DNA of 64,000 nucleotides from positions 124,001 to 188,000 of the forward strand of contig JAOQAI010000005.1 of NCBI GenBank assembly GCA_025963645.1, in the 5' to 3' direction. Of the stretch, positions 1,517 to 47,052 are shown piece after piece. The stretch comes from Flaviaestuariibacter sp. Lineage in GTDB: Bacteria > Bacteroidota > Bacteroidia > Chitinophagales > Chitinophagaceae. A model generated the notes under the pieces. That model saw only the letters and a list, made by a program, of their open reading frames with translations. It was not told the origin of the DNA and made no database searches. The position numbers and the translations under genes are program-made. Each line of letters opens with the position of its first letter. Position 1 is the first letter of the stretch.

Positions 1517-3106
1517 CTACGTCAATTTATTGTTCCAGTTCTTAGCTTCCTGCACCACATGGCAGAGGTCGATCTTAACCTTATACTTGTTACGCAAATG
1601 CCTTGCCAGTGCGTCGGCAGCATACACACTGCGGTGCTGTCCGCCTGTGCAGCCAAAGCCCACGAACAGGTTGGAAAAGCCGCGCTGGATATAGGTTTCC
1701 ACTGATACATCCACCATATCAAAAACAGAGTTCAGAAACTCTTGCATGCGGGTTTGGCGCTCTAAATATTCCATTACCGGCTTATCTCTGCCGTGAATTT
1801 CTTTGTACTCATCGTGCCTTCCGGGGTTGTCAATGCCCCGCATATCGAACAGAAAGCCGCCACCATTACCACTATCATCCTGCGGAATACCTTTCTTGTA
1901 AGAAAAGCTGCAGATGCGCACCACAAGTGGAGTGGTTTCATCTGCTTGAATGGGGGTGAACCTTTGGATGATATCATCGCCCACACAAATAGCCAGCACC
2001 CGCTTAAATTCTGGCACAGAGATGCCAAGATTATTATTTTCAATAAACCATTTAAGGTTTTGTAAAGCCGCTGGTATGCTGGTGAGGAACTGTGCTTTAC
2101 GTTCGAAAAGCCCGCGGAAGCCATACGCTCCTAACACCTGTAACAACCGTATCAGTACGTAGCCGTTATATTGACTGCGAAAAGCATCGCGATCTAACGA
2201 AGCACCGATGACATCTTCAAAAGCGTTCATGTAATCTTCCAGCAACCGCTCTTTCCACGTGTCTGGTAGATTGGCACGAGCCTGCCAGATAAGGCTTGCC
2301 ACATCATATTGTGGTGCACCTTTCATGCCGCCTTGGAAGTCGATGAAGTGAACCCCACCCCAGCCTGCCCCTGCAGGGGTCGGGAGCGCCACCGCACCTG
2401 CCTCGCTTTTCGGCGACTCCGATTGATTGGCAACTTCTCCGGCTGGAGAAGGCTGTGTGCTGGCAAACTCCCCTTTAGGGGGTTTGGGGGTTTTCGTGAC
2501 CTGAATGTTTCGGCTTTGAAAATCGCGGAACATGAAGTATTTGAACTCGGTATGCGTTAGATAATTGCTCAGCGCTTCAAAGTCATAGATCAGTTGCTGC
2601 TTATCATATGGCTTTTGCAGGGCATCGAGAAAATAGTATTTGAAATACAGAAAGTCGGCCATGATAGCTTGTAGACCAAACTCTTTGTTGGTAAGGCATT
2701 TGTCATAATTAAGACCTTCATCTCCTAACACCTGCAGGCGAGCTAACTGATGCAGGCTGGTTCTAAAAAGCTCATAGACTTCTTCCGTAAAGCCTTTTTC
2801 TTCCAGTATACTCAACAAGGACACATCGCCAAAATCTTCCTGGAGGTAAATAGTGCGGTCGTAGCTCACCGCCAGTATCTGTGGGGTATGCAGGTCTTTC
2901 TTTGTGAAGTGATCGGCAAAATAGATAAAAGCCTCGTTCTCCGGGACGTTCAAACCATGTGTGCCGATCACTGTTTCGCCTGCCGCATTACGCAGCCGGA
3001 AATAGCGTCGGTCACTGCCCGATTGGTCGATCACCTCCACGTCTGCGGGGGCTTCGCCACTCCAGCTTTTATATAATTGCGATACCGCATTGATGATTGC
3101 CTGCAT
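1517..3106 (-). CDS. Aminoglycoside phosphotransferase-like (AmgK-like) kinase fused to RapZ C-terminal domain
   Basis: N-terminal APH fold with FRDFQSRNI catalytic loop and FIDFQGG metal-binding motif; C-terminal VVRICSFSYKKGIP...GFGCTGGQHRSVYAADALA matches the RapZ C-terminal domain. Confidence 0.85.
   Translation of the reverse strand: MQAIINAVSQLYKSWSGEAPADVEVIDQSGSDRRYFRLRNAAGETVIGTHGLNVPENEAFIYFADHFTKKDLHTPQILAVSYDRTIYLQEDFGDVSLLSILEEKGFTEEVYELFRTSLHQLARLQVLGDEGLNYDKCLTNKEFGLQAIMADFLYFKYYFLDALQKPYDKQQLIYDFEALSNYLTHTEFKYFMFRDFQSRNIQVTKTPKPPKGEFASTQPSPAGEVANQSESPKSEAGAVALPTPAGAGWGGVHFIDFQGGMKGAPQYDVASLIWQARANLPDTWKERLLEDYMNAFEDVIGASLDRDAFRSQYNGYVLIRLLQVLGAYGFRGLFERKAQFLTSIPAALQNLKWFIENNNLGISVPEFKRVLAICVGDDIIQRFTPIQADETTPLVVRICSFSYKKGIPQDDSGNGGGFLFDMRGIDNPGRHDEYKEIHGRDKPVMEYLERQTRMQEFLNSVFDMVDVSVETYIQRGFSNLFVGFGCTGGQHRSVYAADALARHLRNKYKVKIDLCHVVQEAKNWNNKLT
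2351..2497. repeat. 147-bp in-frame insert of palindrome-rich, repeat-like DNA within the kinase domain
   Basis: Contains CCCCTGCAGGGG (2368-2379), CTTCTCC-ggct-GGAGAAG (2434-2451) and CCCCTTTAGGGG (2470-2481); the last core also occurs in intergenic copies at 33948-33974 and 47006-47032. Encodes low-complexity Pro/Ala/Gly/Ser-rich peptide TKTPKPPKGEF...PTPAGAGWGGV. Confidence 0.7.
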
Positions 3107-33941: not shown

Positions 33942-33947
33942 GCCTCC

Positions 33948-33974
33948 TGTCCCCCTAAAGGGGGAACTCAGGTC
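33948..33974. repeat. CCCCCTAAAGGGGG palindromic element
   Basis: TGTCCCCCTAAAGGGGGAACTCAGGTC; inverted copy with 1 mismatch at 47006-47032. Confidence 0.75.
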
Positions 33975-47005: not shown

Positions 47006-47032
47006 GACCTAAGTTCCCCCTTTAGGGGGACA
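47006..47032. repeat. CCCCCTTTAGGGGG palindromic element (inverted copy of 33948-33974)
   Basis: GACCTAAGTTCCCCCTTTAGGGGGACA; 26 of 27 nt match the reverse complement of 33948-33974. Confidence 0.75.
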
Positions 47033-47052
47033 GGGGGTGAGGACAGGAGCAT

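Follow-up and report, generated by a model that had tools for sequence, protein, structure and literature searches.

Selfish DNA that enters genes is normally spliced out of the gene product, and otherwise it kills the gene. To our knowledge, the Rickettsia palindromic elements (RPE) are the known exception to this requirement for splicing, and we know of no enzyme identified as their mover. According to a paper that describes them (PMC10969869, citing Ogata 2000, 2002), the RPE are palindromic elements of ~150 bp which encode a conserved peptide and are located in frame in unrelated metabolic genes.

The window, i.e. the whole stretch of 64,000 nucleotides of Flaviaestuariibacter sp. DNA analysed here, contains a comparable element within a kinase gene. 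Like the RPE, for which a length of 100-150 bp is typical, the element is ~145 bp long, quasi-palindromic and dispersed, and it is found in frame in many unrelated genes with its reading frame conserved. Unlike the RPE, it occurs in Bacteroidota, is built of two REP-like arms, and alternates at its host sites with versions bearing a DUF559 domain, a feature not reported for RPE in the literature searched. The proposal of the first-pass annotation that the kinase insert is a Bacteroidota analogue of the RPE is supported, in the sense of an analogy and not of homology.

Three other systems share part of these features. Mobile inteins and group I introns likewise exist in forms with and without an endonuclease at one site of conserved genes, with a patchy distribution across species, but in the present elements no splicing domain or ribozyme was detected, the sites are variable loops and the insert is apparently kept in the protein. 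REP/REPIN sequences and their RAYT transposases resemble the present family in their short hairpin units, which form inverted pairs and are partly intergenic, whereas the near-complete copies described here are mostly situated in open frames within genes and their abundance appears to follow DUF559 and not RAYT. Finally, I-Bth0305I and the Vsr-like (EDxHD) nucleases correspond to the predicted fold of the DUF559 model, although here the reading frame of a host enzyme encodes the nuclease domain, which lies between palindromic arms. DUF559 is described as frequent in Vsr-like PD-(D/E)XK endonucleases (PMC12907096). In the literature searched for DUF559 or in-frame palindromic elements in Bacteroidota, mostly non-subscription papers, no account of the present elements was found.

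The kinase gene and its 49-codon insert

The host gene (1517..3106, minus strand) encodes a protein of 529 residues, in which an APH-type kinase and a RapZ C-terminal domain are fused. Its catalytic loop FRDFQSRNIQV (residues 193-203; 2498..2530, minus strand), in which R194, D195 and N200 are invariant in 41 sequences, and the invariant metal-binding motif HFIDFQGG (residues 253-260; 2327..2350, minus strand) are separated by an in-frame mini element of 49 codons (residues 204-252; 2351..2497, minus strand), which is of low confidence or disordered in the structural model. The length of exactly 147 nt noted in the first-pass annotation is reproduced, as are its three hairpins: the 5' arm palindrome CCCCTTTAGGGG (sense: CCCCTAAAGGGG) at 2470..2481, the central hairpin CTTCTCC-GGCT-GGAGAAG at 2434..2451 and the 3' arm palindrome CCCCTGCAGGGG at 2368..2379. 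The match to the element profile described below covers model positions 12-156 of 160 and runs from 2346 to 2490 (minus strand), a slight offset from these boundaries. A nucleotidyltransferase gene (802-1515) adjoins the kinase-RapZ_C gene, in the order kinase then nucleotidyltransferase; judged from Pfam matches and general knowledge, the pair presumably resembles the AmgK-MurU system of peptidoglycan-sugar recycling.

Related kinases indeed have only a few residues at this site. The spacing between QSRN and the next motif amounts to 53 residues here and to 9-11 in 54 orthologues, except for two with 15 and 17 (G008 and G030), which carry single hairpin units at the kinase site (CCCCATTGGAAGGGG and CCCCCTCCACCGGAGGGGG). 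The site is empty in more than 50 kinase orthologues, which do not share a conserved 49-residue loop. Compared with the nearest empty relative, the kinase has gained a net ~43 codons, since 4-6 native loop residues belong to the site. The boundaries are not exact to the base, 4-6 native codons being replaced or changed. No target-site duplication was seen at the element boundaries and no DUF559-bearing element at the kinase site.

A long insert from the same element family is also present in the kinase of G015. In a kinase tree calculated with the insert removed, at least four state changes are required at the insertion site. The sister of the kinase of the source genome (G000) is that of G009, and the sister of the G015 kinase is that of G007, to which it is 94% identical; both sisters have an empty site, and both groupings have a support of 100. 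The mini insert has thus been gained at least twice independently at the kinase site.

The AlphaFold model of the kinase, based on 41 sequences, is confident (mean pLDDT 86.7), with pLDDT values below 50 confined to the last three residues and to residues 208-248, located between two short strands. In view of this low-confidence loop and the intact kinase fold, the P/G/S/A-rich insert peptide is predicted to extend a hairpin turn without breaking the fold. At the RNA level, the kinase insert folds weakly better than shuffled sequences (z -1.7), and z-scores of other copies range from -2.1 to -4.0.

A family of palindromic elements in unrelated genes

A protein search for kinase orthologues also matched a dehydrogenase E1 fusion, MetH and RlmD through the insert alone, and a DNA match added IspG to these unrelated hosts of a kinase-type insert; the host names were read from the sequences, with later Pfam support for most. 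BLASTn of the 147 nt against their own genome yields no second full copy, just arm matches of 14-25 nt, and it is with a DNA profile, built from nine copies, that further copies in the genome are found. Searched in 19 genomes of the genus, this profile has matches in 13, up to dozens per genome. G004, which is one complete contig, is among these, so that an assembly artefact is unlikely. In the alignment of the copies, the element is a quasi-palindrome of ~145 bp whose inverted arms are of the type GGCCCCCTCCGGCTCCCCCGGTGGGGGAG ... CTCCCCCACCGGGGGAGCCGGAGGGGGCC and whose centre includes CACAGCCC and TCGCAAAGCGAGG; the profile matches it on both strands.

Besides the kinase insert, the source genome contains nine profile copies, one at a gene boundary and eight in frame inside open reading frames, the hosts of which are, according to Pfam/NCBIfam models, MiaB, PurH, UvrA, NadB, acetyl-CoA synthetase, tryptophan 2,3-dioxygenase and an M23 peptidase, the eighth being an unassigned, methylase-like ORF. 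The flank of the latter resembles an Eco57I-type methylase of G004, which has a copy at the same place. The tryptophan dioxygenase gene of the source genome (L202:2445, minus strand) has a second in-frame arm unit, DLSSPTGGQGA, elsewhere in the gene.

Within the genus, 59 near-complete copies were examined. Forty-five of them are intragenic, in ORFs of 250 aa or more that extend for 60 aa or more on each side of the copy, and 43 of these 45 are in gene orientation; were every open frame equally suitable, 27.9 would be expected (p = 2.5e-7). This statistic is a guide and not proof of directed insertion, because stops may have accumulated in unused frames since insertion and some copies are not independent of one another. 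That the palindromic repeat is inserted in frame and leaves the frame open is well supported by the empty sites in relatives, the homologous inserts in unrelated genes and the two independent gains at the kinase site. The first-pass annotation had regarded the insert as an intergenic repeat tolerated in frame; the in-frame part of this description holds, but most near-complete copies are intragenic and in gene orientation, and the family is not mainly intergenic.

DUF559 domains between the arms

Two loci have a DUF559 (PF04480) domain between the two halves of the element, and in four loci the profile recognises element arms to either side of DUF559. When searched for across the genus, DUF559 is found in frame within long host ORFs, with palindromic arms as borders. 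The hosts comprise LeuRS (G000, G005, G018 and G008), IspG (G000), MetH (G013 and G018), M23 peptidase (G015, G004 and G016), tryptophan dioxygenase (G007 and G010) and RecQ (G001), and N-terminal fusions join DUF559 to an apparent ArgB and an apparent small cysteine-rich protein. In the hosts scanned with Pfam, host domains are present on both sides of DUF559. Among strong DUF559 matches, 44 of 85 in the wider family and 18 of 69 in a phylum sample occur in ORFs of at least 400 aa; further likely hosts, named from reading the flanks, are chorismate synthase, MetG, CinA and restriction subunits. One LeuRS-type ORF of 1315 aa (L404, G031 C90) contains two DUF559 domains ~1.2 kb apart. The DUF559-bearing LeuRS of the source genome (L321, G000 C10) has a second small insert, IPNPSPQAEKGTDSGEAATPLSNFVGEGLGVR, at residues ~740-772, which is like the arms of its DUF559 element, as well as a variable region near 867-956.

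The same host sites occur in empty, DUF559-bearing and mini states. At the LeuRS site, between GAEI and TTRPDT, most of the 19 genomes are empty (31-35 residues), while the DUF559 hosts listed above, a kinase-type mini in G001 and a short remnant in G011 represent the occupied states; the LeuRS tree needs six state changes. The IspG site after VKRY is occupied by DUF559 in G000, by similar arms lacking DUF559 in G001, G015 and G018, and by a kinase-type mini in G004. A mini in some genomes and DUF559 in others are also observed at the tryptophan dioxygenase, M23, MetH and RecQ sites. Arm types vary between hosts, and some minis can therefore not be traced to a DUF559 element. All eight mini-rich genomes have DUF559 in hosts, compared with 3 of 11 others (Fisher 0.003, with genomes counted without correction for relatedness).

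In the predicted structure of the DUF559 domain, the domain itself has pLDDT values of 70-94 and the arms are disordered. Its structural matches, with TM-scores normalised by target length (TMt), are NGO0050 (3hrl, TMt 0.90), the catalytic domain of I-Bth0305I (3r3p, TMt 0.81) and Vsr (1vsr, 0.49), and the model suggests a homing-endonuclease fold of the EDxHD/Vsr-like type.

Taken with the three states of the host sites, these data make it probable that the kinase insert belongs, as a mini copy without the nuclease, to a homing-type family of mobile elements, situated in frame in permissive loops of conserved genes and translated, not spliced. Each element would have two palindromic REP-like arms in inverted orientation, which in the full form enclose a DUF559 domain read in the host frame and in the mini form do not. 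Homing introns and inteins suggest the likely cycle: DUF559, as a putative relative of I-Bth0305I, would drive mobility by cutting the empty allele or a similar site, after which repair would copy the element into the cut. The element would persist by being translated as part of the host protein, and the insert probably remains in the mature product. Mini elements presumably arise when the nuclease is later lost, and would then decay to short P/G/S-rich loops.

The broader proposal, for which the balance is about even, is that these elements represent a new class of Bacteroidota mobile elements: arm-bounded, homing-type DUF559 cassettes which invade essential genes in frame, are permanently translated without splicing, and leave lasting mini insertions, and which would so drive loop evolution in core enzymes. 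With elements in dozens of genes and many genera, and with a candidate for the moving enzyme, this would be a broader case than that of the RPE. It would also explain why LeuRS, IspG, MetH and other annotated enzymes have disordered inserts and DUF559 fusions. Since the same genes exist naturally as empty, full and mini alleles, mobility and tolerance are directly testable.

Intergenic REP units and alternative explanations

Another conceivable origin is a palindromic element, RPE-like or of MITE/REP type, that is mobilised by a different enzyme, such as a RAYT Y1 transposase, with DUF559 as a passenger captured between REP arms. The arms are indeed REP-like hairpins arranged as inverted pairs, and pairs of this unit are also found between genes. 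The motif CCCCTNNAGGGG occurs four times in the window (0.04 expected); the 2.57-Mb genome has it at 25 positions, and a reversed control pattern at none. Two solitary intergenic REP units in the window, GACCTGAGTTCCCCC..GGGGGACAG (33947..33974, minus strand) and GACCTAAGTTCCCCCTTTAGGGGGACAGGGGGT (47006..47038, plus strand), are of the repeat type of the 3' arm of the ispG DUF559 element. Both of these window copies (33952 and 47017) are examples of a 30-nt unit, GACCTAAGTTCCCCC..GGGGGACAGGGGG, which is found in inverted pairs between genes in the source genome. The same unit makes up the 3' arm of the ispG DUF559 element and its relatives, where it is in frame and encodes the peptide LSSPTGGQGA. 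The 30-nt unit is thus both intergenic and part of an in-gene element, and the intergenic and in-gene repeats therefore form one superfamily of arms but different elements. The earlier observation that the core of the kinase insert recurs between genes is correct as far as the presence of the repeats is concerned, but their arm type differs from that of the insert and the element profile misses 33952 and 47017. A reading of the intergenic CCCCTnnAGGGG pairs as copies of the kinase insert was rejected because the profile misses them; they represent the unit that forms the 3' arm of the ispG-type DUF559 element.

Six intergenic inverted pairs of the 30-nt REP unit in the source genome (C3:59228-59379, C3:66443-66620, C6:47790-47969, C12:95870-96055, C13:21359-21540 and C21:1177-1347) enclose ~130-165 bp of mostly unrelated sequence and often start directly after a stop codon.

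RAYT genes are present in 14 of the 19 genus genomes, including some that are rich in minis, but none is found in the source assembly, which is 63% complete, and their presence shows no association with mini abundance among the genus genomes (Fisher 0.34). RAYT is for this reason not favoured as the mover. Moreover, DUF559 recurs between the arms across many hosts and lineages, and host sites are reused, as in homing; a different mover with DUF559 as a passenger is consequently rather unlikely.

A second possibility is that the host enzyme never contains the element, which would be removed after transcription or translation as an intein, a self-splicing intron or by translational bypass. For most bacteria with LeuRS and IspG, both enzymes are essential. 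In the source genome one copy of each was found (the assembly being 63% complete), both with an insert, so that the interrupted protein must be functional unless the insert is removed; the resemblance of the endonuclease to those of introns and inteins is also in line with removal. Against this, Pfam scans of the host ORFs detect no intein family or Hint domain and Rfam gives no intron match for nine loci, the copies are stop-free and in frame, the sites are variable loops instead of active-site sequence, and in the kinase model the low-confidence loop leaves the fold undisturbed. Removal of the element is accordingly improbable, and a homing-type element that stays in the protein is preferred.

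Ordinary lineage-specific growth of a low-complexity loop would fit the P/G/S/A-rich, fast-evolving peptide (26-54% identity between orthologous E1 inserts versus 70-93% in their flanks), but is hardly credible given that the same 145-bp inverted-repeat DNA is present in unrelated genes and some intergenic places and that nearly identical relatives differ by a whole element.

At a locus of G008 (L095, C227, ~1516-1640), a copy of the element forms the end of a gene, the host frame meeting a TAA inside CCCCCTAAAGGG.
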